DNA of 64,000 nt from Solen grandis (taxonomy: Eukaryota; Mollusca; Bivalvia; Adapedonta; Solenidae): assembly GCA_021229015.1 (NCBI GenBank), contig CM037784.1, positions 64,621,088-64,685,087 on the forward strand. Reading direction: 5' to 3'. A program made the position numbers and the translations under genes. Of this stretch, positions 16,340 through 58,420 are shown piece after piece (position 1 is the first letter of the stretch; every line of letters starts with the position of its first letter). Under the pieces are notes generated by a model. The model searched no databases. It was not told the origin of the DNA and saw only the letters and a program-made list of their open reading frames with translations.

Positions 16340-17414
16340 TAAGCGAAACTCCGAAAGACCGAAGTTCTATGGCGGAAATAAGATTCGAACATAGGACCGA
16401 AAATTTCATTTTAAGATTAAAGAGCTTCAGGATGAGATACAATGTTGGGCCCTTACACTGTTTGCAGTTCTGCAGAATTTCTACATATAATTTGAGTTTT
16501 GACGTCATAGGACGTCATGTGACGTCATAAGCATACTTCTTAATTTTCATATTAGGGCAATTATTTCGACATGATACCAGTTGTTCAGAATAATGAAAAT
16601 TTCAGAGTTCTGACAGTAAAGTATGCGCTTTTGAACAAAAGCATCTTCAGCACCCTATTACGCCATATGACGTCACAGCTAAAAATAGTGTAAAATGTTG
16701 TTCACGCTCTACAGCCGCCATTTATGGTCGGATTTTTTTCAAATTTTCACTGATGGTACATCTTGAAACTAAGGTGTGCATATCCTGTAAGCTAACCGAA
16801 ATTCCGAAAGACCGAAGATCTGTGGCTGAAATAAGATTCGAACATATGACCGAAAATTTCATTTTAGGATTAAAGAGCTTCTGGATTAGATAGAATGTTG
16901 AAACTATCACAGTTTGCAGGTCTGAAGAATTTCTAAATAAATTTTGGGTCGTGACGTCATAAGACGTCATGTGACGCCATAAGCATACTTCTTAATTTTC
17001 ATTTTAGGGCAATGATTTCGACATGTTCGCGCTCTACAGCCGCCATTTATGAACAGATTTTCTTCAAATTTTTACAGATGGTACATCTTGAAACTAAGGT
17101 GTGAATATTTTGTCAGCTAACCTTAATTCCGAAAGATCAAAGTATTGTGGCTGAAGTAAGATTCAAACATAGGACGTTTAAACTAGAAATCAAGTTTGCA
17201 GTCATGTCCTGACGTCATATGACATCATGTTACGTCACAGACTAATACTTAGTTCTTATCATATGCACTAATTTCGGAATATAATGTCAATTGTTCAGCA
17301 TGAACATGAAATACTACCAGAGGTGAGACATTACATGGAACTTCTATCTCCTGCTTTTTGCATTAACCTAGCTTGCAGAAAGTCCTATCATTCGTTTTCA
17401 CGAATGACATCTAG
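16340..17414 (+). mobile_element. Helentron-like element 1 (5' cut by gap)
   Basis: About two A monomers lead into the common A-type 3' tail (CAGCATGAACATGAAATACT, then CTCCTGCTTTTTGCATTAAC). The 3' inverted repeat GCAGAAAGTCCT at 17375, hairpin ATTCGT-TTTC-ACGAAT and CTAG at 17411-17414 follow. The 5' end is lost in the gap. Confidence 0.7.
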
Positions 17415-19307
17415 TGTTTATTATTATTATTCTTTTCTTCTTCCTAACTAAACGCTTATTTTTATATGTTGCAATAGTCCTAGGACGATGAAATTTTTAT
17501 GGCTTATTAGTCACGTGAGGAAATTTTGATTTCAATGATTTTTAGCACCCTATGACGTCACATGACGTCACAGCTAAAAATAGTGAAAAATGGTGTTCGC
17601 GCTCTACAGCCGTCATTTATGGTCGGATTTTCTTCAAATTTTCACAGATGGTACATCTTGAATAAAAGGTGTGCATATCCTTTCAGCTAACCGAAATTCC
17701 GAAAGACCGAAGTTCTGTGGCTGAAATAAGATTCGAACATAGGACCGAAAATTTCATTTTAGGATAAAAGAGCTTCAGGAGGAGATAGAAAGTTGAAACT
17801 TACACAGTTTGCAGTTCTGCAGAATTTCTCAATATATTTTGAGTCGTAACGTCATATGACGTCATGTGACGTCATAAGCATACTTCTTAATTTTCATTTT
17901 AGGGCAATGATTTCGACATGATGCCAGTTGTTCAGAATAATTAAAATTTCAGAGTTATGAAAGTAAGGTATGCGCTTTTGAACAAAAGCATCTTCAGCAC
18001 CATATGACGTCATGTGACGTCAGAGCTAAAATAGTGAAAAATGGTGTTCGCGCTCTACAGCCGTCATTTATGGTCGGATTTTCATCAAATTTTCACAGAT
18101 GGTACATCTTGGAACTAAGGTGTGCATATCCTTTCAGCTAACCGTTGTTCCGAAAGACCGAAGTTCTGTGGCTTTAATAAGATTCGAACATAGGACCGAA
18201 AATTTCATTTTAGGATAAAAGAGCTTCAGAATGAGATAGAATGTTGAATCTTACACAGTTTACAGTTCTGCAGAATTTCTACATATATTTTGAGTCGTGA
18301 CGTCATATGACGTCATATGACTAAACATATTGTAATTTTATTTAGGGCAAGATTTCGACATGATGCCAAAATAAAATTTCAGAGTTATGACAGTAAAGTA
18401 TGCGCTTTTGAACAAAAGCATCTTCAGCACCCTATGACGCCATGTGACGTCAGAGCTAAAAATAGTGAACAATGGTGTTCACGCTCTACAGCGGCCATTT
18501 ATGATCGGATTTTCTTCAAATTTTCACAGATGGTACATCTTGAAACTAAGGTGTGCATATCCTGTCAGCTAACCCAAATTCCGAAAAACCTAAGTTCTGT
18601 GGCTGAAATAAGATTCGAACATAGGACCAAAAATTTTATTTTAGGATTGAAGAGCTTCAGGATGAGATAGAAAGTTGAAACTTACACAGTTTGCAGTTCT
18701 GCAGCATTTCTACAAATATTTTGAATCGTGACGTCATAGGACGTCATAAGCATACCACTTAATTAAAATTTGGGGCTTGATTTCGACATGATGCCAGTTG
18801 TTCAAAATAATGAAAATTTCAGAGTTATGACAGTAAAGAATACGCTTTTGAACAAAAGAATTTTCAGCACCCTATGACGTCATGTGACGTCAGAGCTAAA
18901 AATAGTGAAAAATGGTATTTGCGCTCTACAGCCGCCATTTATGATCAGATTTTCTTCAAATATTTACAGATGGTACATCTTGAAAATAAGTTGTAAATAT
19001 TTTGTCAGCTAACCTTAATTCCGAAAAACCGAAGTATTGCGGCTGAAGTAAGATTCAAACTTAGGACCTTTAAACTAGAAATCAAATTTGCAGTCATGTC
19101 CTGACGTCATATGACATCATGTTACGTCACAGACTAATACTTAGTTCTTATCATTTGCACTAATTTCGGAATATAATGTCAATTGTTCAGCATGAACAAT
19201 GAAATACTACCAGAGGTGAGTCATTACATGAAACTTCTATCTCCTGCTTTTTGCATTAACACAGCTTGCAGAAAGTCCTATCATTCGTTTTCACGAATGA
19301 CATCTAG
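17415..19307 (+). mobile_element. Helentron-like element 2 (A core)
   Basis: It starts with a (TTA)n microsatellite and the leader CTTTTCTTCTTCCTAACTAA, without the 5' AGGACTTTCTGC repeat. About four A monomers follow (site pairs near 17547, 18004, 18434 and 18872), then the A-type tail, GCAGAAAGTCCT, a TTTC-loop hairpin and CTAG at 19304-19307. One monomer near 18320 is internally shortened. Confidence 0.75.
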
Positions 19308-20942
19308 TTATTATTATTCTTTTCTTCTTCCTAACTAAACGCTTATTTTTATATAATGCAATAGTCCTAGGACGATAATATTTTTATGGCAAATTAGTCA
19401 CGTGAGAAAATTTTGATTTCAATGATTTTCAGCACCCTATGACGTCACATGACGTCACAGCTAAAAATAGTGAAAAATGGTGTTCGCGATCTACAGCCGT
19501 CATTTATAGTCGGATTTTCATCAAATTTTCACAGATGGTACATCTTGAATCAAAGGTGTGCATATCCTGTCAGCTTACCGAAATTCCGAAAGACCGAAGT
19601 TCTGTGGCTGAAATAAGATTCGAACATAGGACGGAAAATTTCATTTTAGGATTAAAGAGCTTCAGGATGAGATAGAAAGTTGAAACTTACACAGTTTGCA
19701 GTTCTGCAGAATTTCTACAGATATTTTGAGTCGTGACGTCATATGATGTCATGTGACGTCAAAGGCATACTTCTTAATTTTCATTTTAGGGCAATGATTT
19801 CGACATGATGCCAGTTGTTCAGAATAATGTAAATTTCAGAGTTATGACAGTAATGTATGCGCTTTTGAACAAAAGCATCTTCAGCACCTTTTGACGTCTC
19901 ATGACGTCACAGCTAAAAATAGTGAAAAATGGTGTTCGCGCTCTACAGCCGTCTTTTATGGTCAGATTTACATTAAATTTTCACAGATGGTACATCTTGA
20001 AACTAAGGTGTGCATATCCTGTCAGCTAACCGAAATTCCGAAAGACCGAAGTTCTGTGGCTGAAATAAGATTCGAACATAGGACCGAAAATTTCATTTTA
20101 GGATTAAAGAGCTTCAGGATGAGATAGAAAGTTGAAACTTACACAGTTTGCAGTTCTGCAGAATTTCTACAAATATTTTGAGTCGTGACGTCATATGACG
20201 TCATGTGACGTCATAGGCATACTTCTTGATTTTCATTTTAGGGTAATGATTTCGACATGATGCCTGTTGTTCAGAATAATGAAAATTTCAGAGTTATGAC
20301 AGTTAAGTATGCGCTTTTGAATAAAAGCATCTACAGCACCCTATGACGTTATGTGACGTCACAGTTTAAAATAGTGAAAAATGGTGTTCGCGCTCTACAG
20401 CTGCCATTTATGGCCGGATTTTATTCAAATTTTCACAGATGGTATATCTTGAAACTAAGGTGTGCATACCCTGTCAGTTAACAGAAATTTCGAAAGACCG
20501 AAGTTCTGTGGCTGAAATAAGATTCGAACATAGGACCGAAAATTTCATTTTAGGATAAAAGAGCTTCAAGATGAGATAGAAAGTTGAAACTTACACAGTT
20601 TGCAGTTCTGCAGAATTTCTACATATATTTTGAGTCTTGACGTCATATGACGTCATAAGCATACTTCTTAATTTTCATTTTAAGGGAATGATTTTGACAT
20701 GATGCCAGTTGTTCAGAATAATGAAAATTTCAGAGTTACGACAGTAGAGTATGCGCTTCAGAACAAAAGAATTTTCAGCACCCTATGACGTCATGTGACG
20801 TCAAAGCTAAAAGAAGTCCATACGAAAAAAAAAAAAGTAAAGGTTAGAGAATTTAATATATATTCTTTCTCACGGAATTAATCTTAATATTTTTCAATTT
20901 TAGCAGAAAGTCCTATCATTCGTATCAACGAATGAAATCTAG
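19308..20942 (+). mobile_element. Helentron-like element 3 (A core, ATCA-loop end)
   Basis: Microsatellite and leader, then A monomers with site pairs near 19440, 19892, 20344 and 20787. It switches to a different 3' tail (GAAGTCCATACG, then an A run, then CGGAATTAATCTTAATATTT) ahead of GCAGAAAGTCCT. The hairpin loop is ATCA and the end reads GAAATCTAG (CTAG 20939-20942). Confidence 0.75.
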
Positions 20943-22917
20943 TTATTATTATTATTATTCTTTTCTTCTTCCTAACTAAACGCTTATTTTAATATGTTGC
21001 AATAGTCCTAGGACGATGAAATTTTTATGGCTTATTAGTCACGTGAGGAAATTTTGATTTCAATGATTTTCAGCACCCTATGACGTCACATGACGTCACA
21101 GCTAAAAATAGTGAAAAATGGTGTTCGCGCTCTACAGCCGTCATTTATGGTCGGATTTTCTTCAAATTTTCACAGATGGTACATCTTGAATCAAAGGTGT
21201 GCATATCCTGTCAGCTAACCGAAATTCCGAAAGACCGAAGTTCTGTGGCTGAAATAAGATTCAAACATAGGACCGAAAATTTCATTTTAGGATAAAAGAG
21301 CTTCAGGATGAGATAGAAAGTTGAAACTTACACAGTTTGCAGTTCTGCAGAATTTCTACAAATATTTTGAGTCATGACGTCATATGACGTCATAAGCATA
21401 CTTCTTAATTTTCATTTTAGGACAATGATTTCGACATGATGCCAGTTGTTCAGAATAATGAAAATTTCAGAGTTATAAAAGCAAAGTATTCGCTTTTGAA
21501 CAAAAGCGTCATCAGCACCCTATGACGTTACATGACGTCACAGCTAAAAATAGTGAAAAATGGTGTTCGCGCTCTACAGCCGTCATTTATGGTCGGATTT
21601 TCTTCAAATTTTCACAGATGGTACATCTTGAATCAAAGGTGTGCATATCCTGTCAGCTAACCGAAATTCCGAAAGACCGAAGTTCTGTGGCTGAAATAAG
21701 ATTCGAACATAGGACCGAAAATTTCATTTTAGGATTAAAGAGCTTCAGGATGAAATAGAAAGTTGAAACTTACACAGTTTGCAGTTCTGCAGAATTTCTA
21801 CAAATATTTTGAGTCGTGACGTCATATGACGTCATGTGACGTCATAAGCATACTTCTTAATTTTCATTTTAGGGCAATGATTTCGACATGATGCCAGTTG
21901 TTCAGAATAATGAAAATTTCAGAGTTATGAAGGCAAAGTATTTGCTTTTGAACAAAAGCATCTTCAGCACCCTATGACGTCACATGACGTCACAGCAAAA
22001 AATAGTGAAAAATGGTGTTCGCGCTCTACAGCCGTCATTTATGGTCAGATTTTCTTCAAATTTTCACAGATTGTACCTTTTGAAATTCAGGTGTGCATAT
22101 CCGGTCAGCTAACCAAACTTCCAAAAGACTGAAGTTCTGTGGCTGAAAAAAGGTTCGAACATAGGACCGAAAATTTCATTTTAGGATTAAAGAGCTTGAG
22201 GATGAGATAGAAGGTTGAACCTTACACAGTTTGCAGTTCTGCAGAATTTCTACATATATCTTGAGTTTTGACGTCATATGACGTTTTGTGACGTCATAAG
22301 CATACTTCTTAATTTTCATTTTAGGTCAATGATTTTGACATGATGCCAGTTGTTCAGAATAACGAAAATTTCAGAGTTATGATAGTAAAGTATGCCCTTT
22401 TGAACAAAAGCATCTTTAGCACACTATGACGTCATCTGACGTCAGAGCTAAAAATAGTTAAAAATGGTGTTCACGCTCTACAGCCGCCATTTATGGTCGG
22501 ATTTTCTTCAAATTTTCACAGATGGTACATCTTGAAAGTTAAGTGTGCATATCCTGTCAGCTAACCGAAATTCCGAAAGACCGAAGTTCTGTGGCTGAAA
22601 TAAGATTCGAACATTGGATCGAAAATTTCATTTTAGGATTAGAGAGCTTCAGGATGAGATAGAAAGTTGAAACTTAAACAGTTTGCAGTTCTGCAGAATT
22701 TCTACATATGTTTAGAGTTATGACGTCATATGACGTCATGTGACCTAATACTTAGTTCTTCTCATTTGCACTAATTTCGGAATATAATTTCAATTGTTCA
22801 GCATGAACATGAAATACTACCAGAGGTGAGTCATTACATGAAACTTCTATCTCCTGCTTTTTGCATTAACACAGCTTGCAGAAAGTCCTATCATTCGTTT
22901 TCACGAATGACATCTAG
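20943..22917 (+). mobile_element. Helentron-like element 4 (A core, about 2.0 kb class)
   Basis: Leader plus four A monomers (open frames or site pairs at 21080, 21522, 21974 and 22427), the A-type tail, a TTTC-loop hairpin and CTAG at 22914-22917. Length and order match the elements ending at 33917, 46611 and 57505, indicating one amplified length class. Confidence 0.8.
21817..21844. promoter_or_regulatory. triple CRE cluster at 10-bp spacing (representative)
   Basis: Three TGACGTCA sites begin at 21817, 21827 and 21837, joined by TA and TG. The same triplet occurs in most A monomers. The spacing puts all three on nearly the same face of the helix. Whether any protein binds is unknown. Confidence 0.5.
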
Positions 22918-23016
22918 TTATTAGGACTTTCTGCCTAAAGCAGAAAGTCCTATTGGGTTTGTTATGTTTATTATTATTATTATTATTAGGGCTTTCTGCC
23001 TCAAGCAGAAAGTCCT

Positions 23017-24858
23017 ATTGGGTTTGTTCTGTTTTTTTATTATTCTTATTCTTTTTTTCTTCCTCTTGTATTTGTGTTTATTTTGATGTGTTGCCAATGG
23101 CCCAGAACAATGAAAATTTGATGGCATATATTTCAAACCATGAGCTTTTGGATGCAATGAATTTCATATTCATATGACGTCATATAACGTCAGATTTGAC
23201 GTCAGGTGAAAAAGTTTGTACGCGGTCTACAGCCATTATTTCTGGACCGATTTTCATCAAAATTTCACAGAATATGTATGTTACGGTCTAGTTGTGCATC
23301 CCGGTGTCCGTTTTTCAAAATTCGAAAAGTCCATGGTTCTATAGCGAATCCAAGATTCGAACCAAGGTCGTAATTTTTTAAATGCTTATAAAATCTGTCC
23401 TATTTAAGAAAGAAAGTTGATATTTATTCAGTATATAGGTCTCTAGAAGTTTTAAACATTTTGTGAAAATAAATGTCATATGACGTCACGTGACGTCATT
23501 ATATGATAATGTATTTCTAATATTAACAAGAATATTTCTATATGTTGAAATTGTCGAAGGGCAATGGAAATTTAAAGACACATGCTTCAAACGCTGAAAT
23601 TTTGATTTCAATGATTTTCATATGCCTATGACGTCATATGACGTCACATTTGAAATATGCTACACAAGTTTGTACGCGGTCTATAGCCATTGTTTGTACA
23701 CCGATTTTCATCAAATTTTCACAGATTGTGTACATTAAGTTCTAGTTGTGCATCCCGGTGTCCGTTTTTCAAAATTCGAAAAGTCCAAGGTTCTATATCG
23801 ATTCCAAGATTCGAACCAAGGTCGTAAATTTTCAAATTCTTATAAAATCGGTCCTATTTGAGATAGAAAGATGATATTAGGTCAGTATATAGGTCTCTGG
23901 GAGTCTTAAACATTCTGTGAAAATAAATGTCATATGACGTCACGTGACGTCATTATATGATAATGAATTCCTAATTCTAACAAGATTATTTCTATATGTT
24001 GAAATTTTTGAAGGGCAATGAAAATTTTATGCCGCATGCTTCAGATGCTGAAATTTCGATTTCAGTGATTTTCAGAAGCCTATGACGTCATATGACGTCA
24101 CATTTGAAATTGACTACGAAAGTTTGTACACGGTCCAGAGCCATTAATAATGGGCCGATTTTCATCAAACTTTCACAGAATGTGTATATTCAGTTCTAGT
24201 TGTGCGTCTCGGTGTCCGTTTTTCAAAATCCGAAAAGTCCATGGTTCTATAGCGAATTCAAGATTCGAACCGAGGTCGTAAATTTTTAAATGCTTATAAA
24301 ATCGGTCCTATTTGAGATAGAAAAGTGATATTTGGTCAGTATATAGGTCTCTAAGAGTCTTAAAGATTTTGTGAAAATAAACGTCATATGACGTTACGTG
24401 ACGTCATTATATGATAATGTATTTCTAATATTAAGAGTATTTCTATATGTTAAATTCGAAGGGCAATGAAAATTTAATGACAAATGATTCAGACGCTGAA
24501 ATTTCGATTTCAATGGTTTTCCGAAGCCTATGCCGTCATATGACGTCACATTTGAAATTGACTACAAAAGTTTGTACACGGTCCAGAGCCATTATTAATG
24601 GGCCGATTTTCATCAAATTTTCACAGAATGTATATATTACGTTCTTATTGTGTATACCGGTGTCCGTTTTTCAAAATTCGAAAAGTCCACGCATATATGG
24701 CGGATCCAAGATTCGAACCAATGACGTCAATATTTTAATGCTTATAAAAACTGTCCTATTTGAGATAGAAAGTTGAAATTTTGTCAGTTAGTAGGTCTCT
24801 GGGTGTCTTAACAATTATGTGAAAATAAACGTCATATGACGTCACGTGACGTAATTTG
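23017..24858 (+). repeat. module B array, about 450-bp monomers
   Basis: Four monomers spaced 448-454 bp share TATGACGTCATATGACGTCA, then GTTTGTACGCGGTCTACAGC, then TTTTCATCAAATTTTCACAG, then CATCCCGGTGTCCGTTTTTC, then CCAAGATTCGAACCAAGG. They close with GACGTCACGTGACGTCA. The order of landmarks (double site, CTACAGCC, TTCACAGA, GATTCGAAC, AGATAGAAAGTTG) equals that of module A. A and B are therefore diverged descendants of one monomer. Confidence 0.85.
23935..23952. promoter_or_regulatory. CRE/E-box 18-bp perfect palindrome (representative)
   Basis: TGACGTCACGTGACGTCA reads the same on both strands. It is two CREB/ATF sites 10 bp apart whose junction creates a CACGTG E-box. It recurs at the end of most B monomers. 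Binding is predicted only from the motif. Confidence 0.5.
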
Positions 24859-24974
24859 TTTATTATTATTATTCTTTTCTTCTTCCTAACCAAACGCTTA
24901 TTTTAATATGTTGCAATAGTCCTAGGACGATGAAATTTTTATGGGTTATTAGGCACGTGAGGAAATTTTGATTT

Positions 24975-26120
24975 ACCCCTACTGCATATATGTAGCCATA
25001 TCCCGATTTTTGTAAATATATGTATGAATAAGAATTATAGCTGAATAATTGACGTTTCCAAAGATATTTAGTTTATTAAAATTGGTTTACGCAATACAAA
25101 GTTATAAGCAAAAAAACTAAATGAAATGAAGCTAATTTTGCTGATAATATGCTGTTTTCTTGAGGTTTAACAGTCAATATCTCAGAAACGACTGAAGATA
25201 AGTTTATACATTATGCGTATAAAATGTAGTTTTAATTTCTAACGGACCAAGTTTATTGAAATTGGACTTCATATAAGAAAGTTACATGGAAAATAAGATA
25301 TTTCATAATCATGCATCATAAAAATATGGAAAAGGTCACGCGCAGGGGTCACCAAGCTTAAATACTTGCGCAACGACTTAAAAAAAAAAAAAAAAAAAAA
25401 ATATATATTATCAAATTGCAACTGATGGGCTATATCTTGATTTTTTTTTTGTTGTTGTTGTTTTTTGTCGAATGTTGACTGTTTCCAAAAAAAAGCATTG
25501 AAGTTAATACATGTACAACGGCACAAGACAAAAATCCGTATTTGCAACACTATGTAGCTAGCGAGCAGTTTGCAAGCCTTGAAAAATTCACACGCAGCCC
25601 CACATTTTAGACCATCTAAAAACTGCATTGTTATGCTAACGATATTCATATTGCATCAGTTTGTAGGCTGGGATGTTACCTTTCAAAATATCACCATAGT
25701 TCGAAATTCCAGGAATTTATGGCAAAACTACGGAAGCCCAAACACGCCAAAATCGCTAAATACGTTTAACTACGTTACAGGTGTCGAAAGGATATAGCAC
25801 TATACAAATATTCAATACTTCTTCCTACTGAGGCTAAAATTAAACAAGGTTACAACTGAGCTGGAGTGATGAAATTCTATGTGTGATGAAAGTTAGAAAC
25901 TTACATTTGAACACTGATTCATTTTTCTTTCATGTCATATGACATAGTATAAATTTTGTATGTAAACTACATGTGCAAGATATGGGCGGACTTTTATTAA
26001 AATTCACAGAATGTGTTCTATTTGTGCTATTTTATATAGAAATAGAGGAGATAGAAAGTTGCAATTTGGACAGATTATCTATTATATCATCTTCTATATA
26101 TATTCTATATAAAGCAGATG
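24975..26120 (+). repeat. C-type module, copy 1 of 3
   Basis: This TGACGTCA-free segment starts at CCCCTACTGCATATATGTAG. It holds two diverged C units (landmark TATCTC or CATATC about 177 bp apart) and continues into a stretch with a long A run (25379 on) and T-rich tract. It recurs at about 51605-52710 and 54300-55465. A 75-codon frame (25570-25797) is present in all three copies with few changes, but it has no recognised domain. Confidence 0.8.
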
Positions 26121-26162
26121 TTGCAGAAAGTCCTATCATTCGTTTAAACGAATGACATCTAG

Positions 26163-36952: not shown

Positions 36953-36953
<1 letters not shown>

Positions 36954-36983: not shown

Positions 36984-36984
<1 letters not shown>

Positions 36985-39404: not shown

Positions 39405-39648
39405 ACTCCGTTTTTTCAAATCATTCAAATAAATCTATGAAGTTAACATACGGAATCACTCAAATATATATTTCTCTATCGAAATATACAAAATTGTCGT
39501 GAAAATAATCCTCCTTTGTATGTTTATTTGTTTGAAATATATGCGAATCCGAGAAAAGGACAACAACCTGGACCAGCAGCGCAGTACATTTCGGGATGAT
39601 TCGGATTTTTACGCTGCGAAATTGGTCAGCGATATTGCGATTATTTTC

Positions 39649-44616: not shown

Positions 44617-46611
44617 TTATTATTATTATTATTATTCTTTTCTTCTTCCTAACTAAACGCTTATTTTTATATGTTGCAATAGTCCTAGGACGATGAAATT
44701 TTTATGGCTTATTAGTCACGTGAGGAAATTTTGATTTCAATGATTTTCAGCACCCTATGACGTCACATGACGTCACAGCTAAAAATAGTGAAAAATGGTG
44801 TTCGCGCTCTACAGCCGTCATTTATGGTCGGATTTTCTTCAAATTTTTACAGATGGTACATCTTGAATCAAAGGTGTGCATATCCTGTCAGCTAACCGAA
44901 ATTCCGAAAGACCGAAGTTCTGTGGCTGAAATAAGATTCGAACATAGGACCGAAAATTTCATTTTAGGATAAAAGAGCTTCAGGATGAGATAGAAAGTTG
45001 AAACTAACACAGTTTGCAGTTCTGCAGAATTTCTACAAATATTTTGAGGCGTGACGTCATATGACGTCATGTGACGTCATAAGCATACTTCTTAATTTTC
45101 ATTTTAGGGCAATGATTTCGACATGATGCCAGTTGTTCAGAATAATGAAAATTTCAGAGTTATGAAAGGAAAGTATGCGCTTTTGAACAAAAGCATCTTC
45201 AGCACCCTATGACGTCATGTGACGTCACAGCTAAAAATAGTGAAAAAAGGTGTTCGCGCTCTACAGCCGTCATTTATGGTCGGATTTTCTTCAAATTTTC
45301 ACAGATGGTACATCTTGAATCAAAGGTGTGCATATCCTGTCAGCTAACCGAAATTCCGAAAGACCGAAGTTCTGTGGCTGAAATAAGATTCGAACATAGG
45401 ACCGAAAATTTCATTTTAGGATAAAAGAGCTTCAGGATGAGATGGAAAGTTGAAACTTACACAGTTTGCAGTCCTGCAGAATTTCCACAAATATTTTGAG
45501 TCGTGACGTCATATGAAGTCATGTGACGTCATAAGCATACTTCTAAATTTTCATTTTTGGGCAATGATTTCGACATGATGCCAGTTGTTCAGAATAATGA
45601 AAATTTCAGAGTTATGAAAGCAAAGTATGCGCTTTTGAACAAAAGCATCTTCAGCACCCTACGACGTCACATGACGTCACAGCAAAAAATAGTGAAAAAT
45701 GGTGTTTACGCTCTACAGCCGTCATTTATGGTCGGATTTTCTTCAAATTTTCACAGATGGTATATTTTGAAACTCAGGTGTGCATATCCTGTCAATTAAC
45801 CGAAATTCCCAAAGACCGAAGTTCTGTGGCTGAAATAAGATTCGAACATAGGACCGATAATTTCATTTTAGGATTAAAGAGCTTCAGGATGAGATAGAAA
45901 GTTGAAACTTACACAGTTTGCAGTTCTGCAGAATTTCTACATATATCTTGAGTCTTGACGTCATATGACGTCTTGTAACGTCATAAGCATACTTCTTAAT
46001 TTTCATTTTTGGGCAATGATTTTACATGATGCCAGTTGTTCAGAATAACGAAAATTTCAGAGTTATGACAGTAAAGTATGCCCTTTTGAACAAAAGCATC
46101 TTTAGCACACTATGACGTCATGTGACGTCAGAGTTAAAAATAGTGAAAAATGGTGTTCACGCTCTACAGCCGCTATTTATGGTCGGATTTTCTTCAAATT
46201 TTCACAGATGGTACATCTTGAAAGTTAGGTGTGCATATCCTGTCAGCTAATCGAAATTCCGAAAGACCGAAGTTCTGTGGCTGAAATAAAATTCGAACAT
46301 AGGACCGAAAATTTCATTTTAGGATTAGAGAGCTTCAGGATGAGATAGAAAGTTGAAACTTAAACAGTTTGCAGTTCTGCAGAATTTCTACATATGTTTA
46401 GAGTTATGATATCATATGACGTCATGTGACGTCACAGACTAATACTTAGTTCTTATCATTTGCACTAATTTCGGAATATAATGTCAATTGTTCAGCATGA
46501 ACATGAAATACTACCAGAGGTGAGTCATTACATGAAACTTCTATCTCCTGCTTTTTGCATTAACACAGCTTGCAGAAAGTCCTATCATTCGTTTTCACGA
46601 ATGACATCTAG
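44617..46611 (+). mobile_element. Helentron-like element 12 (A core, about 2.0 kb class)
   Basis: Leader, four A monomers (44757, 45209, 45661 and 46112), the A-type tail, a TTTC-loop hairpin and CTAG at 46608-46611. It lacks the 5' AGGACTTTCTGC repeat. It is nearly the same, block by block, as the element ending at 57505. Confidence 0.8.
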
Positions 46612-49600
46612 TTAGGACTTTCTGCCTACTGGCAGAAAGTCCTATTGGGTTTGTACTGTTTTTTATTATTCTTATTCTTCTTATTATTCTTTTTTTCTTC
46701 CTCTCATATTTGTGTTAATTTCGATGTGTTGCCATTGACTCAGAACAATGAAAATTTTATGGCATACATTTCAAACCATGAGCTTTCGGATGCAATGAAT
46801 TTCATATTCATATGACGTCATATAACGTCAGATTTGACGTCAGGTGAAAAAGTTTGTACGCGGTCTACAGCCATTATTTCTGGACCGATTTTCATCAAAT
46901 TTTCACAGAATGTGTATGTTAGGATCTAGTTGTGCATCCCGTTATCCGTTTTTCCAAATTCGACAATTCAATGGTTCTATAGCGAATCCAAGATTCGAAC
47001 CAAGGTCGTAAATTTTTAAATGCTTATAAAATTTGTCCTGTTTAAGATAGAAAGTTGATATTTAGTCAGTATATAGGTCTCTAGAAGTTTTAAACATTTT
47101 ATGAAAATAAATGTCATATGACGTCACGTGACGTCATTATATGATAATGTATTTCTAATATTAACAAGAATATTTCTATATGTTGAAATTGTCGAAGGGC
47201 AATGAAAATTCAATGACACATGCTTCAAACGCTGAAATTTTGATTTCTATGATTTTCATATGCCTATGACGTCATATGACGTCACACTTGAAATATGCAA
47301 CAAAAGTTTGTACGCGGTCTACAGCCATTGTTTGTGAACCGATTTTCATCAAATTTTCACAGGTTGTGTATATTAAGTTCTAGTTGTGCATCCCGGTGTC
47401 CGTTTTTCCAAATTCGAAAAGTCCATGGATCTATAACGAATCCAAGATTCGAACCAAGGTCGTAAATTTTTAAATGCTTATAAAATCTGTCCTATTTAAG
47501 AAAGAAAGTTGATATTTAGTCAGTATATAGGTCTCTAGAAGTTTTAGAAATTTTGTGAAAATAAATGTCATATGACGTCACGTGACGTCATTATATGATA
47601 ATATATTTCTAATATTAACAAGAATATTTCTATATGTTGAAATTGTCGAAGGGCAATGAAATTTTAATGACACATGCTTCAAACGCTGAAATTTTGATTT
47701 CTATGACTTTCATATGCCTATGACGTCATATGACGTCACACTTGAAATATGCAACAAAAGTTTGTACGCTGTCTACAGCCATTGTTTATTAACCGATTTT
47801 CATCAAATTTTCACAGAATGTGTATATTAAGTTCTAGTTGTGCATTCCGGTGTCCGTTTTTCAAAATTCGAAAAGACCAGGGTTAAATGGCCAATCCAGG
47901 ATTCGAACCAAGGACGTCAAATTTCAAATTCTTATAAAATCTGTCCTATATAAGATAGAAAGTTGGTATTCACTCAGAGTATATGTCTCCATAACTTTTT
48001 TTATATGTTATGAATATGGACGTCACATGACGTCATCAGACTAAAATGTATTTCTAATATGTACAAGTCAATCGCTGTATGTTGCTGTGGTCTTCGGACG
48101 ATGAAATTTTGACGGCAAATAATTCAGATGCTGAAATTTTCATTTATATGGAACTGTAATGCCTATGACGTCATATGACGTCACACTTGACATATACTAC
48201 AAACGATTGTACGCGGACTACAGCCATTGTTTATGAACCGATTTTAATCAAAATTTCACAGAAAGTGTATATTAAGTTTTGGTTATGGGTCCTGGTTTCC
48301 GTTTTTCAAAATTCGTAAAGACCAAGTTTCTATGGCGAATCCAAGATTCAAACCAAGGACGTCAAATTCTAAAAGCTTATAAAATCGTTCCTATATATGA
48401 TAGAAAGTTGATTTTTTGTCATTATGTAGGTCTTTGGGTGACTGAAAGATTTTGTGAAAATGAACGTCATATGCCGTCACATGACGTCATTACATGAAAA
48501 TTTATTTCTAATATTTACAAGAAAATTGCTATATGTTCAAATGGTCCATTGAAATGAAAATTGTATGACTTATGCTTCAAACGCTGATATTTTGAATTCT
48601 ACAATTTTCATATGCCTATGACGTCATATGACGTTACACTTGCCATACGCTACAAAAGTTTGTACGCGGTCTACAGCCATTGTTAATGGACCGATTTTCA
48701 TAAAAAAATTCACAGAAAGTGTATATTAGGTAAAAGTTGAGCATCCGGGTGTCCGTTCTTCCAAATTCAAAAATGCAAAGGTTTTATGACGGATCCAATA
48801 TTCGAACCATTGACGTCAAATTTTAAATACGTATAAAATTCTTTCAAGATAAGTTAGAAATCTAATATTTGGAATATTAGGTCTCCAAGAGTGCTTTACA
48901 TTCTATGAAGATGAACGTCATTTGACGTCATATGACGTCATAAGGTCAAAAATTATTTCTGATATATACGCGTAAATTTGTTATGTTGTAACTTCCCAGG
49001 ACCATGAAATCTTATGGTATATACTTCAGAAATGCTTTAGAATGCAATGTAATTCATATTAATTTGACGTTATATCACATCAGATTTGACGTCAGGACAA
49101 AAAGGTTTTACGCGGTGTACAGCCATTATTTTTGGACCAATTTTCAGCAAATTTCAAAGAATGTATATGTAACGCTCTAGTTGTGTATCCCGGGTCCTGT
49201 TTTACAAATTCGAAAAGACGGAAAGGCAATGGATCTATGGCGAATCCAAGTTTCGAAACATTGACGTCAAATTTCAAAAACATATAAAATCGCTTCGAGA
49301 TGATTTAGAAAGTTGATATTTGGACTGAATATTAGTCTTTAAGACTTATTTATATTCTGTGAGGATTAACGTTATTTGACGTCATAAGGTCAAAAAGAAT
49401 GTTAATATATCTACGCGTTAATTTCTATATGTTGCAAAGTTGCAAGGAGCATGAAAAAATTACTTATATTTAAGATACTTAATATTTCATTTCATTGATT
49501 TTCTTATGCCTATGATGTCATGTGACATCAAACTTGACGTTATCTACACACTCTTGTACGCGGACTACAGCCATTATTACAGGATGGAATTCGAATTGTA

Positions 49601-49860
49601 AGCGTTTTAAATAAATTTGATTTGTAACATAGATTATAAAAATAGTTCAAGTTAAATAAATGGATATAAAAAAATGATTCTCAGTTACTTTTGCCATTTC
49701 CTCCAAGTTAAACGGTTTATTTTTCAAAGTTCATTTAAGTTATGGCCATACAAAAGCAAGTTAAAGGATGCAATTTCATATCCTCTTACTGTTTTTGCTT
49801 TTAAGTATTTGACAAATGTAGCAGAAAGTCCTATCATTCGTATCAACGAATGACATCTAG
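46612..49860 (+). mobile_element. Helentron-like element 13 (5' hairpin, about seven B monomers)
   Basis: It follows the previous CTAG after exactly TT. The 5' hairpin lies at 46614-46643 with loop CTACT, then about seven B monomers (46812, 47269, 47720, 48167, 48617, 49070 and 49510), increasingly diverged to the right. The tail differs from other elements. The 3' end has the ATCA loop but GACATCTAG (CTAG 49857-49860). Confidence 0.8.
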
Positions 49861-52755
49861 TTATTATTATTATTATTCTTTTCTTCCTCAAGGATTTTCA
49901 TATGTTGCAATCGTCCTAGGAGAATGAAATTTCGATGGCATATTATTCATATGCGTAATTAAAAGATTCTATAATTTTCAAATGCCTATGACGTCATTAT
50001 GACGTCACACTTGGCAATTGCTACAAAAGTTTGTACGCGGTCCAGAGCAATAATTAATAAACCGATTTTTATCAAATTTTCACAGAATGTGTATATTAAG
50101 TTCTAGTTGTGCATCTCGGTGTCCGTTTTTCAAAATTCGAAAAGCACAAAGTTCTATGGCGAATGCAAGATTCAAACCAAGGACGTCAAATTGATACATG
50201 CTCATAAAATCGTCCCTAAATGAGACAGAATGTTGATATTTTGTCAGTATATAGATTTCCGATAGATTTAAATATTTTGTGAAAATGGACGTCTTGTGAC
50301 GTCATATGACGTCATCAAATTTCTAATTTTTAAACACATAACTATATATGTTAATATGGTCCAAGGACAATGAAATTTTGATGTCAAATTCTCCAAGAGA
50401 TGATATTTTGAATTCTATGATTTTCATATCTCTATGACGTCATATGACGTCACACTTGAAATAAGCTACAAAAGTTTGTACGCGGTCCAGAGCCATTATT
50501 AATGAACCGATTTTCATCAAATTTTCACAGAATGTGTATATTAAGTTCTAGTTGTGCATCCCGGTGTCCGTTTTTAAAATTCGAAAAGTCCAAATTGATT
50601 CCTTAACCAAAAATTTTTTTTAAACATTTTGTGAAAATAAACGTCATATGACGTCACGTGATGTCATTATATGATAATGAATTTCTAATTCTAACAAGAT
50701 TATTTCTATATATTGAAATTTTCGAAGGGCAATGAAAATTTAATGTCGCATGCTTCAGATGCTGAAATTTCGATTTCAATGATTTTCAGAAGTCTATGAC
50801 GTCATATGACGTCACTTTTGAAATTGACTAAGAAAGTTTGTACACGGTCCAGAGCCATTATTAATGGGCCGATTATTATCAAATTTTCACATAATGTGTA
50901 TATTAAGTTCTTATTGTGTATACCCGTGTCCGTTTTTCAAAATTCAAAAAGTCCATGGTTCTATAGCGAATTCAAGATTCGAACCAAGGTCGTAAATTTT
51001 TAAATGCTTATAAAATCGGTCCTGTTTGAGATAGAAAAGTGATATTTGGTCAGTATATAGGTCTCTGGGAGTCTTAAACATTTTGTGAAAATAAATGTCA
51101 TATGACGTCACATGACGTCTATAAATGAAGATGTATTTCTAATATTAACAAGAGTATTTCTATATGTTAAAATTATCGAAGGACAATGAAAATTTAATGA
51201 CAAATGTTTCAGACGCTGAAATTTTGATTTCAATGATTTTCAGAAGCCTATTACGTCATATGACGTCACATTTGAAATTGACTACAAAAGTTTGTACACG
51301 GTCCAGAGCCATTATCAATGGGCCGATTTTCATCAAAAGCAATATCAAAATTCAAAATATATTTAGTTAATACTTATAAAAATTGTCCGATTTGAGATAG
51401 AAAGTTGAAATTTTGTCAGTTAGTAGGTCTCTGGGTGTCTTAACAATTATGTGAAAATGAACGTCATATGACGTCACGTGACGCCATTTGTTTATTATTA
51501 TTATTCTTTTCTTCTTCCTAACTAAACGCTTATTTTAATATGTTCCAATAGTCCTAGGACGATGAAATTTTTATGGGTTATTAGGCACGTGAGGAAATTT
51601 TGATTTCACCCCTACTGCATATATGTAGCCATATCTCAATAAATATCGATTTTTGTAAATATATGTATGAATAAGAATTATAGCTGAATAATTGACGTTT
51701 CCAAAAATATTTAGTTTATTAAAATTGGTTTTACGCAATACAAAGTTATAAGCAAAAAAACTAAATGAAATGAAGCTAATTTTGCTGATAATATGCTGTT
51801 TTCTTGAGGTTTAACAGTCAATATCTCAGAAACGACTGAAGATAAGTTTATACATTATGCGTATAAAATGTAGCATGTTTTAAGAGCTTTCTAACGGTAC
51901 CAAGTTTATTGAAATTGGACTTCATATAAGAAAGTTACATGGAAAATAAGATATTTCATAATCATGCATCATAAAAATGTGGAAAAGGTCACGCGCAGGG
52001 GTCACCAAGCTTAAATACTTGCGCAACGACTGAAAAAAAAAAAAAAAAAAAAAAATATCAAATTGCAATTGATGGGCTATATCTTGATTTTGTTGTGTTT
52101 TTTTTTGTTTTTTTTGTCGAATGTTGACTGTTTCCAAAATAAGCATTGAAGTTAATACATGTACAACGGCACAAGACAAAAATCCGTATTTGCAACACTA
52201 TGTAGCTAGCGAGCTGTTTGCAAGCCTTGAAAAATTCACACGCAGCCCCACATTTTAGACCATCTAAAAACTGCATTGTTATGATAACGATATTCATATT
52301 GCATCAGTTTGTAGGCTGGGATGTTACCTTTCAAAATATCACCATAGTTCGAAATTCCAGGAATTTATGGCAAAACTACGGAAGCCCAAACATGCCAAAA
52401 TCGCTAAATACGTTTAACTACGTTACAGGTGTCGAAAGGATATAGCACTATACAAATATTCAATACTTCTTCCTACTGAGGCTAAAATAAAACAAGGTTA
52501 CAACTGAGCTGGAGTGATGAAATTCTATGTGTGATGACATAGTATAAATTTTGTATGTAAACTACATGTGCAAGATATGGGCGGACTTTTATTAAAATTC
52601 ACAGAATGTGTTCTATTTGTGCTATTTTATATAGAAATAGAGGAGATAGAAAGTTGCAATTTGGACAGATTATCTATTATGTCATCTTCTATATATACTA
52701 TATAAAGCAGATGTTGCAGAAAGTCCTATCATTCGTTTAAACGAATGACATCTAG
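49861..52755 (+). mobile_element. Helentron-like element 14 (B core, C module)
   Basis: A (TTA)n and short leader, four B monomers (49987, 50434, 50797 and 51251, the second and last internally deleted), an internal second leader near 51490, then the C-type module (51605 on). The TTAA-loop hairpin and CTAG at 52752-52755 close it. Compared with element 5, the stretch between TGTGTGATGA and CATAGTATAAA near 52534 is shortened. Confidence 0.75.
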
Positions 52756-54723
52756 TTAGGACTTTCTGCCCTTTCGGCAGAAAGTCCTATTGGGTTTGTA
52801 CTGTTTATTCTTCTTCTTCTTATTATTCTTTTTTTCTTCCTAACTAAACGCTTATTTTTCTATGTTGCAATACTCCTAGGACGATGAAATTTTTATGACT
52901 TATTAGCCACGTCAGGAAATTTTGATTTCTATGATTTTCATATGCCTATGACGTCATATGACGTCACATTTGAAATATGCTACAAAAGTTTGTACGCGGT
53001 CTACAGCCATTGTTTGTGAACCGATTTTCATCAGATTTTCACAGATTGTGTATATTAAGTTCTAGTTGTGCATCCCGGTGTCCGTTTTTCAAAATTCGAA
53101 AAGTCCATGGTTCTATAGCGAATCCAAGATTCGAACCAAGGTCGGAAATTTTTAAATGCTTATAAAATCTGTCCTATTTAAGAAAGAAAGTTGATATTTA
53201 GTCAGTATATAGGTCTCTCGAAGTTTTAAAAATTTTGTGAAAATATTTCTCATATGACGTCACGTGACGTCATTATATGATAATGTATTTCTAATATTAA
53301 CAAGAATATTTCTATATGTTGAAATTGTCGAAAGGCAATGAAAATTCAAAGACACATGCTTCAAACGCTGAAATTTTGATTTCTATGATTTTCATATGCC
53401 TATGACGTCATATGACGTCACACTGGAAATATGCAACAAAAGTTTGTACGCGGTCTACAGCCATTGTTTATGAACCGATTTTCATCAAATTTTCACAGAA
53501 TGTGTATATTAAGTTCTAGTTGTGCATCCCGGTGTCCGTTTTTCAAAATTCGAAAAGTCCAAGGTTCTATAGCGATTCCAAGATTCGAACCAAGGTCGTA
53601 AATTTTCAAATTCTTATAAAATCGGTCCTATTTGAGATAGAAAGATGATATTGGGTCAGTATATAGGTCTCTGGGAGTCTTAAACATTTTGTGAAAATAA
53701 ATGTCATATGACGTCACGTGACGTCATTATATGATAATGAATTTCTAATTCTAACAAGATTATTTCTAAATCTTGAAATTTATGAAGGGCAATGAAAAAT
53801 TAATGCCGCATGCTTCAGATGCTGTAATTTCGATTTCAAAGATTTTCAGAAGCCTATGACGTCATATGACGTCACACTTGAAATATGCAACAAAAGTTTG
53901 TACGCGGTCCAGAGCCATTGTTTATGAACCGATTTTCATCAAATTTTCACAGAATGTGTATATTACGTTCTTATTGTGTATACCGGTGTCCGTTTTTCAA
54001 AATTCGAAAAGTCCAAGCATATATGGCGGATCCAAGATTCGAACCAATGACGTCAATATTTAAATGCTTATAAAAACTGTCCTATTTGAGATAGAAAGTT
54101 GAAATTTTGTCAGTTAGTAGGTCTCTGGGTGTCTTAACAATTATGTGAAAATAAACGTCATATGACGTCACGTGACGTCATTTGTTTATTATTATTATTC
54201 TTTTCTTCTTCCTAACTAAACGCTTATTTTAATATGTTGCAATAGTCCTAGGACGATGAAATGTTTATGGGTTATTAGGCACGTGAGGAAATTTTGATTT
54301 CACCCCTACTGCATATATGTAGCCATATCTCAATAAATATCGATTTTTGTAAATATATGTATGAATACGAATTATAGCTGAATAATTGACGTTTCCAAAG
54401 ATATTTAGTTTATTAAAATTGGTTTACGCAATACAAAGTTATAAGCAAAAAAACTAAATGAAATGAAGCTAATTTTGCTGATAATATGCTGTTTTCTTGA
54501 GGTTTAACAGTCAATATCTCAGAAACGACTGAAGATAAGTTTATACATTATGCATGTAAAATGTAGCATGTTTTAAGAGCTTTCTAACGGTACCAAGTTT
54601 ATTGAAATTGGACTTCATATAAGAAAGTTACATGGAGAATAAGATATTTCATAATCATGCATCATAAAAATAAGGAAAAGGTCACGCGCAGGGGTCACCA
54701 AGCTAAAATAGTTGCGCAACGAC

Positions 54724-54754
<31 letters not shown>

Positions 54755-55508
54755 AAATTGCAATTGATGGGCTATATCTTGATTTTTTTTTTTTTGTTGT
54801 TGTTGTTGTTGTTTTTGTCGAATGTTGACTGTTTCCAAAATAAGCATTGAAGTTAATACATGTACAACGGCACAAGACAAAAATCCGTATTTGCAACACT
54901 ATGTAGCTAGCGAGCAGTTTGCAAGCCTTGAAAAATTCACACGCAGCCCCACATCTTAGACCATCTAAAAACTGCATTGTTATGCTAACGATATTCATAT
55001 TGCATCAGTTTGTAGGCTGGGATGTTACCTTTCAAAATATCACCATAGTTCGAAATTCCAGGAATTTATGGCAAAACTACGGAAGCCCAAACACGCCAAA
55101 ATCGCTAAATACGATTAACTACGTTACAGGTGTCGAAAGGATATAGCACTATACAAATATTCAATACTTCTTCCTAATGAGGCTAAAATTAAACAAGGTT
55201 ACAACTGAGCTGGAGTGATGAAATTCTATGTGTGATGAAAGTTAGAAACTTACATTTGAACACTGTTTCATTTTTCTTTCATGTCATATGACATAGTATA
55301 AATGTTGTATGTAAACTACATGTGCAAGATATGGGCGGACTTTTATTAAAATTCACAGAATGTGTTCTATTTGTGCTATTTTATATAGAAATAGAGGAGA
55401 TAGAAAGTTGCAATTTGGACAGATTATCTATTATGTCATCTTCTATATATACTATATAAAGCAGATGTTGCAGAAAGTCCTATCATTCGTTTAAACGAAT
55501 GACATCTA
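52756..55508 (+). mobile_element. Helentron-like element 15 (5' hairpin, B core, C module)
   Basis: It follows the previous CTAG after exactly TT. 5' hairpin 52758-52788, ATTGGGTTTGTACTG, leader, three B monomers (52949, 53400 and 53855), an internal leader near 54190, C module (54300 on), TTAA-loop hairpin and CTAG at 55505-55508. It carries the full set of parts and is a good type copy for the B-C subfamily. Confidence 0.82.
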
Positions 55509-57505
55509 GTTATTATTATTATTATTATTCTTTTCTTCTTCCTAACTAAACGCTTATTTTTATATGTTGCAATAGTCCTAGGACGATGAAATTTTTATGG
55601 CTTATTAGTCACGTGAGGAAATTTTGATTTCAATGATTTTCAGCACCCTATGACGTCACATGACGTCACAGCTAAAAATAGTGAAAAATGGTGTTCGCGC
55701 TCTACAGCCGTCATTTATGGTCGGATTTTCTTCAAATTTTTACAGATGGTACATCTTGAATCAAAGGTGTGCATATCCTGTCAGCTAACCGAAATTCCGA
55801 AAGACCGAAGTTCTGTGGCTGAAATAAGATTCGAACATAGGACCGAAAATTTCATTTTAGGATAAAAGAGCTTCAGGATGAGATAGAAAGTTGAAACTTA
55901 CACAGTTTGCAGTTCTGCAGAATTTCTACAAATACTTTGAGGCGTGACGTCATATGACGTCATGTGACGTCATAAGCATACTTCTTAATTTTCATTTTAG
56001 GGCAATGATTTCGACATGATGCCAGTTGTTCAGAATAATGAAAATTTCAGAGTTATGAAAGGAAAGTATGCGCTTTTGAACAAAAGCATCTTCAGTACCC
56101 TATGACGTCATGTGACGTCACAGCTAAAAATAGTGAAAAAAGGTGTTCGCGCTCTACAGCCGTCATTTATGGTCGGATTTTCTTCAAATTTTCACAGATG
56201 GTACATCTTGAATCAAAGGTGTGCATATCCTGTCAGCTAACCGAAATTCCGAAAGACCGAAGTTCTGTGGCTGAAATAAGATTCGAACATAGGACCGAAA
56301 ATTTCATTTTAGGATAAAAGAGCTTCAGGATGAGATGGAAAGTTGAAACTTACACAGTTTGCAGTTCTGCAGAATTTCTACAAAAATTTTGAGTCGTGAC
56401 GTCATATGAAGTCATGTGACGTCATAAGCATACTTCTTAATTTTCATATTTGGGCAATGATTTCGACATGATGCCAGTTGTTCAGAATAATGAAAATTTC
56501 AGAGTTATGAAAGCAAAGTATGCACTTTTGAAGAAAAGCATCTTCAGCACCCTATGACGTCACATGACGTCACAGCAAAAAATAGTGAAAAATGGTGTTT
56601 ACGCTCTACAGCCGTCATTTATGGTCGGATTTTCTTTAAATTTTCACAGATGGTACATTTTGAAACTCAGGTGTGCATATCCTGTCAACTAACCGAAATT
56701 CCCAAAGACCGAAGTTCTGTGGCTGAAATAAGATTCGAACATAGGACCGATAATTTCATTTTAGGATTAAAGAGTTTCAGGATGAGATAGAAAGTTGAAA
56801 CTTACACAGTTTGCAGTTATGCAGAATTTGTACATATATCTTGAGTCTTGACGTCATATGACGTCTTGTGACGTCATAAGCATACTTCTTAATTTTCATA
56901 TTTGGGCAATGATTTTGACATGATGCCAGTTGTTCAGAATAACGAAAATTTCAGAGTTATGACAGTAAAATATGCCCTTTTGAACAAAAGCATCTTTAGC
57001 ACACTATGACGTCATGTGACGTCAGAGCTAAATATAGTGAAAAATGGTGTTCACGCTCTACAGTCGCTATTTATGGTCGGATTTTCTTCAAATTTTCACA
57101 GATGGTACATCTTGAAAGTTAGGTGTGCATATCCTGTCAGCTAATCGAAATTCCGAAAGACCGAAGTTCTGTGGCTGAAATAAGATTCGAACATAGGACC
57201 GAAAATTTCATTTTAGGATTAGAGAGCTTCAGGATGAGATAGAAAGTTGAAACTTAAACAGTTTGCAGTTCTGCAGAATTTCTACATATGTTTAGAGTTA
57301 TGATATCATATGACGTCATGTGACGTCACAGACTAATACTTAGTTCTTATCATTTGCACTAATTTCGGAATATAATGTCAATTGTTCAGCATGAACATGA
57401 AATACTACCAGAGGTGAGTCATTACATGAAACTTCTATCTCCTGCTTTTTGCATTAACACAGCTTGCAGAAAGTCCTATCATTCGTTTTCACGAATGACA
57501 TCTAG
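55509..57505 (+). mobile_element. Helentron-like element 16 (A core, about 2.0 kb class)
   Basis: Leader, four A monomers (55650, 56102, 56554 and 57007), the A-type tail, a TTTC-loop hairpin and CTAG at 57502-57505. Its 3' end is the right edge of the whole concatemer. Confidence 0.82.
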
Positions 57506-58251
57506 TTGTGGTTGCTATGGTAACGGAAATAGTGAAAATATGGCAAAAATAGGATCCCGCGATAACTTTATAACTAAGCAAGCTAACTTGATGAAACTTA
57601 CTTGGAACTAGATGGCAATGTGTCGATTATGCACGTTGTTTTATTTTTGTTCTTGAAATAAAATTGTTGTTGCTATGTTAATGGAAATAGTGAAAATATG
57701 GCAAAAATGGGATCCCATGATAACTTTATAACTAAGCAAGCTAACTTGATGAAACTTGGTATATGACTAGATGGCAATATGTAGATTATGCACATCATTT
57801 TAATTTTGTTCTTTGACTAAAATTGTGGTTGCTATGGTAACGGAAATAGTGAAAATATGGCAAAAAATGGGATCACGCAACCGCGATAACTTTATAATAA
57901 ATTTTATAAGGCATGTATATAGTCAGGGTGGTGATGCAGAGTGAAAGTTCTCATTTCTCATCAACAAGACTAAAGACTAAAGAAAAACATTTTGGATCAG
58001 GCAAGCTAACTATTATTAATTCTATTTCTTGCATCTGTCTTGCTTGCATGAATTGTATAGTGGGCACAGCAGAGACAACAACTCTACATGTAAGTCTTGC
58101 TTAAATGGACATAACTTAAATATTCCCTTACATTTACTTTAACCAAAGTCTTGTTTTTCTTGGACCAAAATTCCGGTTGCTGTGGTAATGGAAAAATTAT
58201 GCACCTCACCGGTAGGGGACTCAAGTGTTGCTTGCAACACCAGTTACTTGT
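57506..58251 (+). mobile_element. second Helentron-like family, 3' part
   Basis: Core units repeat at 158-159 bp (TTGCTATG at 57512, 57670 and 57829), each with AATAGTGAAAATATGGCAAA and AAGCAAGCTAACTTGATGAA. A non-repeated stretch follows, then the 3' repeat CACCGGTAGGGGACT (58207-58221), an exact inverse of the 15-bp 5' end at 40646. A hairpin GTGTTG-CTTG-CAACAC (58225-58240) and CAGTTACTTG precede a T-rich flank. The layout is the same as in the main family, but the sequences are unrelated. The 63-codon frame near 57913 has no recognised domain. Confidence 0.8.
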
Positions 58252-58420
58252 TTATTTTTGGAATATGGCTTATTTCAAAAAGTTCATGCATGAGAAGTCC
58301 ATACGAAAAAAAAAGTAAAAGGTAGGGAATTTGATATATATTCTTTCTAACGGAATTAATCTTTATATTTTTCAATGTTAGCAGAAAGTCCTATCATTCG
58401 TATCAACGAATGAAATCTAG
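58252..58420 (+). mobile_element. 3' end of the outer Helentron-like element (ATCA-loop type)
   Basis: GAAGTCCATACG, an A run and CGGAATTAATCTTTATATTT match the tails of elements 3 and 11. They are followed by GCAGAAAGTCCT, the ATCA-loop hairpin and GAAATCTAG ending at 58420. Its 5' portion probably lies left of 40646, so the second-family element is itself nested in a main-family element. Confidence 0.65.

Follow-up and report, generated by a model that had tools for sequence, protein, structure and literature searches.

A very large family of putative non-autonomous Helentrons with CRE-bearing satellite cores in Solen grandis, probably arrayed by polar self-nesting

The anatomy of HINEs, the non-autonomous members of the rolling-circle Helentrons, has been described before, as have their satellite cores, the mixing of their modules, and their insertion at TT (PMC7492417, PMC4067079; this and all other literature is cited from the sections consulted). 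In the Cg_HINE elements of Crassostrea gigas, a subterminal inverted repeat (subTIR) of 11 to 12 bp has an inverted partner 1 to 12 bp away and a microsatellite in the left flank, and these are followed by a satellite-like core in fixed orientation and by a 3' subTIR with a palindrome. Insertion is at TT without target-site duplication, modules are shared between elements, and insertions into other repeats occur (PMC7492417). HINE-Mo and DINE-1 likewise have palindromic subTIRs, a 3' stem-loop, a microsatellite, central repeats, and TT targets (PMC4067079, PMC2374699), and terminal modules surround tandem cores in the bivalve elements pearl, CvA, CvE, CvG, MgE, and DTC84 (PMC7492417, PMC11136912). 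The oyster satellitome includes Helitron-type satellites of 437 bp (PMC8268682). In Fusarium, FoHeli elements form nested copies with repeated 5' termini and a single 3' end, for which self-insertion and re-mobilization were proposed (PMC5148889). Here we analyzed a 64,000-nucleotide stretch of the genome of the bivalve Solen grandis (assembly GCA_021229015.1, contig CM037784.1, positions 64,621,088 to 64,685,087; the window), which holds an array of elements that are similar in build to HINEs and whose cores carry the cyclic AMP response element (CRE).

The 12-bp sequence GCAGAAAGTCCT was found 33 times in the window with at most one mismatch, compared to 0.17 expected from shuffles. Sixteen 3' termini on the plus strand consist of GCAGAAAGTCCT, then ATCATTCGT-NNNN-ACGAAT-GA(C/A/T)ATCTAG, then T (one of them, at 43332, with a substitution), and a 17th, degenerate 3' terminus lies on the minus strand at ∼60390 to 60900. 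There are eight copies of the 5' terminus, seven with exact AGGACTTTCTGC and one, at 22988, with AGGGCTTTCTGC. These counts bear out the first-pass annotation of the window, made from its letters alone, which had listed 16 direct 3' termini and eight 5' termini. It had overlooked that the complement of each 5' terminus comes 5 to 7 bases after it (in the copies at 22988, 33945, and 43377 there is a mismatch), which makes a hairpin possible at this end too. In DNA folds of two copies per end, the 5' hairpins had stems of 12 bp (z, −6.8) and 13 bp (z, −8.1), and the 3' hairpins, which include ATCATTCGT-ACGAATGA and sit 7 bases ahead of the end of CTAG, had a stem of 8 bp (z, −5.1 and −6.1). Rfam returned no match in the window at its gathering thresholds.

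An element extends from AGGACTTTCTGC to CTAG and has a 12-bp subTIR at both ends (AGGACTTTCTGC and GCAGAAAGTCCT). Its order is 5' hairpin, ATTGGGTTTG, TTA/TTC microsatellite leader, core, variable tail, 3' subTIR, 8-bp hairpin, and CTAG. The same annotation had proposed tandem cores of about 452, 450, and 180 bp; we measured periods of 452 bp (core A), 454 bp (core B), and about 181 bp (core C), and a fourth core, of 158 bp, is part of a different element (D). The annotated coordinates of the array, 16340 to 58420, were right with two exceptions: at the left edge there is an assembly gap rather than the end of an element, and related material continues, as judged by eye, to ∼60.9 kb. The gap (100 N, 16240 to 16339) abuts a TTA microsatellite, and the array therefore lacks its left part, perhaps including a stack of 5' modules.

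Five tail types (T1 to T5) were distinguished. Over the last 60 bases, identity was 0.90 to 1.00 within T1, 0.70 to 0.75 between T1 and T3, 0.73 to 0.82 between T1 and T2, and 0.83 to 0.87 between T3 and T4. Under the published rule that a family has an identical subTIR of at least 11 bp and a subfamily 80% identity over the last 60 bp (PMC4067079), the window would hold one family with at least two subfamilies, and T3 and T4 would merge. Classification as a very large HINE family, the interpretation offered at first pass, is supported by the features of the sequence: a 12-bp subTIR (that is, at least 11 bp) with an inverted repeat partner at the 5' end, a microsatellite leader with a tandem core, a 3' palindromic hairpin, insertion at TT or T-rich sites, and no coding capacity.

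We searched the 1.324-Gb genome with both ends, as had been suggested along with that interpretation. A 33-place pattern for the 3' end, with up to one mismatch, found 9,121 sites (4,595 + 4,526), and the 23 bases of the 5' module, again with up to one mismatch, found 10,832 (5,402 + 5,430); the reversed control gave 0 in each case. In the sequence fetched for closer study, 5' modules and the 3' ends next after them were 1.2 to 5.5 kb apart (median, ∼2.8 kb; 19 cases). Estimated from copy number and these end-to-end distances, the family may account for about 2% of the genome. Two samples were used in what follows. Orientation and flanks were taken from the first 100 and the first 30 listed 3' ends, respectively, all on one contig (C1). 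The second sample comprised 318 kb of merged sequence including the window, with 68 3' ends and 54 5' modules at up to four substitutions; it is biased, as 16 of its regions were selected for containing an isolated listed 3' end.

Insertion followed a strict polarity. In the 318-kb sample, all 68 3' ends closed in CTAG before T, and in all 68 the 12 bases that follow were richer in T than in A. TT stood directly ahead of 50 of the 54 5' modules and was absent in 4. Unrelated DNA followed eight of the first 30 listed 3' ends, and its T polarity was the same. Further, the window contains a built-in empty site: a block at 40842 to 57505 breaks the 158-bp repeat of element D, and the neighboring units represent the uninterrupted state. 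The flanks of the block, joined minus one T, match a neighboring unit across the junction except for scattered substitutions and one or two additional T residues where they meet, which fits the TT insertion of HINEs. At this one site, the extra TT may be the terminal T of the element or a 2-bp TT duplication, which are indistinguishable. The TT flanks agree with the first-pass idea that elements insert between two T residues, and the single empty site had no duplication longer than TT.

Neighboring 3' ends were on the same strand in 59 of 61 cases at distances below 10 kb, in 6 of 6 at 10 to 50 kb, and in 18 of 32 at more than 50 kb. Of the first 30 listed 3' ends, 22 abutted the leader or 5' module of another member. 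Because leaders make up only ∼0.05% of the genome, by a very rough estimate (∼10,000 copies of some 60 bases), this represents a strong preference. The larger, biased sample gave 55 of 68 (56 when one diverged leader, recognized by eye, is included), and 43 of these 55 family junctions had a leader but no 5' module. Each of the tail types T1 to T5 preceded two or more leader types. Exact junctions of the form CTAG-TTATT-AGGACTTTCTGC numbered 404 across the genome, with 0 in the control.

At the other end, 5' modules of mixed subtypes were stacked. Among the first 100 that were listed, 59 stood in runs of two to five, and one locus (L031) had six differing modules in succession. Stacked neighbors had a mean identity of 0.896 (n = 26), compared to 0.865 between loci (n = 1336). 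Only 3 of the 26 stacked pairs were identical; since the other 23 differed, we rejected simple tandem duplication as the main source of the stacks. We then asked how far the ends pair like brackets. For this we grouped into same-strand clusters the 100 listed 3' ends together with the 86 listed 5' modules that fall in their stretch (14 lying beyond it were dropped). In the 27 of 49 clusters that held both kinds of end, 48 of 80 3' ends were matched by a 5' module to the left, compared to 39.2 (standard deviation, 3.3) after permutation, and 7 of 2000 permutations reached 48. In locus L033 the ends balance at two levels (5', 5', 3', 3'), with CRE-bearing sequence also upstream. Ahead of a 5' stack in locus L043 (C1:13390800-13400600, minus strand) there is a related 3' end whose hairpin, GCAGAAAGCCCTTATCGTTTGTGGGACAAACGAAGTCTAG, differs, suggesting that other families have part of the subTIR in common.

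Candidate helper genes are present in the genome. From 228 candidates, the Pfam model PF14214 gave 150 scored matches, of which dozens lie in open frames of 1,000 to 2,575 codons; it gave none in 14 control genomes. Of eight Rep domains that we chose and read, seven had the motif RGSPHxH with FYR, which is diagnostic of Helentrons (PMC4067079). NCBIfam gave no match for three Rep fragments, and by eye no Rep or helicase frame was recognized among the 17 frames of at least 120 amino acids in the 318-kb sample.

As a whole, these results are likely to be best explained by a HINE family served by Rep in trans, whose members nest within one another with fixed polarity by way of the T-rich leader and are later rearranged by re-mobilization and slippage. 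Nested self-insertion was not part of the first-pass interpretation. A Helentron Rep-helicase would act in trans on both hairpin ends. With TT targeted in a strand-polar way and only one strand of the leader rich in T, every element would offer its own family a landing pad, and members would nest in a single orientation. Such nesting would yield stacked 5' ends at the left and the succession core, 3' end, leader, core, 3' end at the right. Later re-mobilization, which could start at any 5' end and stop at any 3' end, would unbalance the counts, and slippage between near-identical 50-bp 5' modules would add to the imbalance.

Several observations weigh against this explanation. In the bracket test, 32 of the 80 3' ends were unmatched, and 20 of the 100 3' ends fell outside it, in clusters without a listed 5' module. 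The closed block at 40842 to 57505 is itself unbalanced, with five 5' modules and seven 3' ends, and across 50 runs there was no significant correlation between the size of a stack and the number of 3' ends that follow it (rho, 0.20; P = 0.15). Perfectly balanced nesting was rejected, as the bracket counts do not balance. It is important to note that the lists of ends, drawn up at no more than one mismatch, lose diverged ends and that assembly collapse of repeats could contribute to the unequal counts; re-mobilization of composites, slippage among 50-bp modules, and assembly collapse could each produce them and are not separable here. Stacked 5' modules were also slightly more alike than random (P = 0.014), so some stacks include duplication. 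Finally, with regard to the autonomous partner for which a search was suggested at first pass, Helentron-type Rep genes are present in the genome, but no Rep gene bearing the family's ends was found among the 150 PF14214 matches, of which one neighborhood was read. In that neighborhood, 6 kb (L051, including 100 N) located 3.4 kb from a Rep match contained no subTIR half and no long frame.

Helitron clustering and self-insertion are known in outline (PMC4067079, PMC5148889, PMC12628747), so we compared the proposed route with these descriptions. For Cg_HINE, which we liken to the family by description only, the sections consulted report no one-strand self-nesting and no 5' stacks (PMC7492417). 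For HINE-Mo and DINE-1, likened on the same basis, those sections mention clustering but not a landing pad in the element's own leader (PMC4067079, PMC2374699). FoHeli nesting is documented there in a few cases (PMC5148889), whereas here it would involve thousands of strand-polar cases by way of a microsatellite that the element carries. In the open-licence literature searched, we found no leader described as a landing pad that its own family uses with strand polarity. As the HINE build itself is known, what appears to be new is self-nesting through the element's own strand-polar leader, together with CRE-bearing HINE cores. The formation of long satellite-like arrays by transposons is still to be explained, and strand-polar TT insertion combined with a T-rich leader would produce one-strand nests without a tandem duplication step, a simple and testable route.

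Two other origins of the arrays were considered, both of which we regard as improbable. In the first, the arrays are concatemers made by rolling-circle replication past the terminator and inserted as one piece. Tandem Helitrons of such origin have been reported, including one form with many 5' ends and a single 3' end (PMC4067079, PMC12628747), and in some stacks here (L031, L050) 5' ends do outnumber 3' ends. Such concatemers should consist of near-identical units, but the units of a single array differ in leader, core, and tail, two or more leader types follow each of T1 to T5, and stacked 5' modules are mostly non-identical. Moreover, end-to-end concatemers should have a 5' module at every junction, which 43 of the 55 family junctions lack.

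In the second, to which we give no more credence, the clusters arose mainly by recombination between the TTA/TTC microsatellites of separate copies rather than by targeted insertion. The junctions do fall in microsatellites, the counts of ends are unbalanced, and near position 5410 of locus L050 a B core switches to an A leader without a 3' end. Recombination of this kind is at odds with the CTAG and ensuing T at each of the 68 3' ends sampled, with the shared T polarity of the 8 of 30 copies that enter unrelated DNA, and with an empty site in D that differs only by extra T at the junction; the stacked 5' modules, too, fit the layout of nested insertion. Lastly, canonical Helitrons (Helitron1) start with TC, insert between A and T, and end in CTRR, and it is very improbable that the family belongs to them: the 3' hairpin followed by CTAG fits CTRR, but the 5' end starts with AGG, the flanks are TT, a 12-bp subTIR is present at both ends, and seven of the eight Rep domains read, though not linked to the family's ends, have the Helentron-type RGSPHxH.

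The cores of the family are rich in TGACGTCA, the CRE palindrome, which was found 232 times in the window, compared to 0.5 expected. Among 998 sites in the fetched sample, 358 spacings between consecutive sites were exactly 10 bp. Across the genome, the doublet with this spacing, TGACGTCANNTGACGTCA, was found 68,476 times (overlapping triplets count twice), compared to 2 in the reversed control; the first 100 listed doublets all fall within a single stretch of C1, where ends of the family occur as well. Consensus units of A and B were 67% identical and had both CRE blocks in common. Cg_HINE core units, by contrast, measure 138 to 181 bp (PMC7492417), compared to 452 and 454 bp with CRE doublets here.

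A first look at 122 A and 73 B units had suggested exceptional conservation of the CREs, which we rejected because the anchors contained CRE and were biased. When anchors free of CRE were used instead (67 A units and 52 B units), the CRE octamers ranked within the top fraction of 0.24 to 1.0 of all 8-bp windows in A and of 0.025 to 0.23 in B; conservation within subfamilies is only moderate once this bias is removed. An internal periodicity of ∼150 bp in the 452-bp unit was not shown either, as the best shift gave 34% identity, compared to a mean of 27%, and was not near 150. A conserved block of the A and B cores around TTCGAAC, AAGATTCGAAC, reads GTTCGAATC on the other strand, which we take to resemble a tRNA B box and which could hint at an RNA polymerase III origin of the core.

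The CRE doublets are probably bound by a bZIP factor. They may serve bZIP-driven expression of the element, act as Rep-binding iterons, or be passengers. A more speculative interpretation, which we consider unlikely but worth stating, is that the family is a self-seeding amplifier of bZIP sites, combining a leader that evolved as a landing pad with functional TGACGTCA doublets at one helical turn. The landing pad would keep new copies within old ones, outside genes and in a single orientation, and the doublets would be a CREB/ATF-driven germline promoter or enhancer of the element or iteron-like Rep sites. If this were true, most of some 68,000 dimeric CREs in a single animal genome would stem from the family. 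Of the features first flagged as possibly undescribed, the CRE-bearing HINE core was not found in the open-licence papers searched, but the mixing of flank and core modules is already known from oyster HINEs (PMC7492417). A well-known transcription factor palindrome, familiar from animal gene switches, is here tied to a mobile satellite, and the number of doublets makes spread of a CREB regulon by transposons in Solen grandis a directly testable question.

Within the window, elements follow one another on the plus strand. To the right of the gap are four A-core elements, one whose left part is lost in the gap (16340 to 17414; tail T1) and three that have leader A without a 5' module (17415 to 19307, T1; 19308 to 20942, T3; 20943 to 22917, T1). 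A stacked 5' module (22923 to 22987) then stands immediately ahead of a second one, which opens a B-core element with a C-like leader and tail T2 (22988 to 26162). Two elements with leader B1 and tail T1 come next, one with a B array followed by an A array (26163 to 29096) and one with an A array at 30091 to 31730 (29097 to 31925); they are 98.4% identical over 2,827 aligned bases. The A-core element after them (31926 to 33918; T1) and those at 44617 to 46611 and 55510 to 57505 are 98.5 to 99.1% identical over ∼1,993 bases, a sign of recent spread.

An outer element with a 5' module, leader C, and the 181-bp C core starts at 33945 (33945 to 35560). Its 5' end probably pairs with the T3 tail at 58251 to 58420 (3' end at 58381), around element D and the nest that D holds. 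The left part of D, delimited by eye, has an inverted CCCCTACCGGTG end, a GTCY microsatellite, and the 158-bp core (40646 to 40841); its right part has 158-bp units, an inverted end, and a GTGTTGC-TT-GCAACAC hairpin (57506 to 58250). By eye, D, the target of the nest, looks pearl-like, and pearl-type elements are likened to it and to the family by description only (PMC7492417, PMC11136912).

The nest itself spans 16.7 kb (40842 to 57505), with seven 3' ends and five 5' modules, and sits at TT within a D unit. It opens with two stacked 5' modules that are identical 50-bp units (40842 to 40941), the second belonging to an A-core element with tail T1 (40892 to 43371). It continues with a further A-core element with a 5' module and tail T3 (43377 to 44616), an A-core element with leader A, no 5' module, and tail T1 (44617 to 46611), and a B-core element with a 5' module, a C-like leader, and tail T4 (46614 to 49860). 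The remaining members have leader B2, no 5' module, a core with 12 CREs, and tail T2 (49861 to 52755); a 5' module, leader B1, a B core, and tail T2 (52758 to 55509); and leader A without a 5' module, an A core, and tail T1 (55510 to 57505). Past the outer copy, a C-type element resumes with leader and core but no 5' module (58421 to 59880), and the degenerate copy in the opposite orientation (60390 to 60900, minus strand) runs into low-complexity sequence. From 61000 to 64000, where GC content falls to 17% and short homopolymer runs make up the DNA, the sequence looks like low-quality assembly rather than biology. Inside the C element, at 36900 to 40300, there is a minus-strand reverse transcriptase frame of 652 amino acids (RVT_1; E value, 1e-38) that lies, by eye, between inverted copies near 36918 and 40200. 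It is among the 17 frames of the 318-kb sample, which also include several at locus L044 that by eye resemble those of long interspersed nuclear elements.

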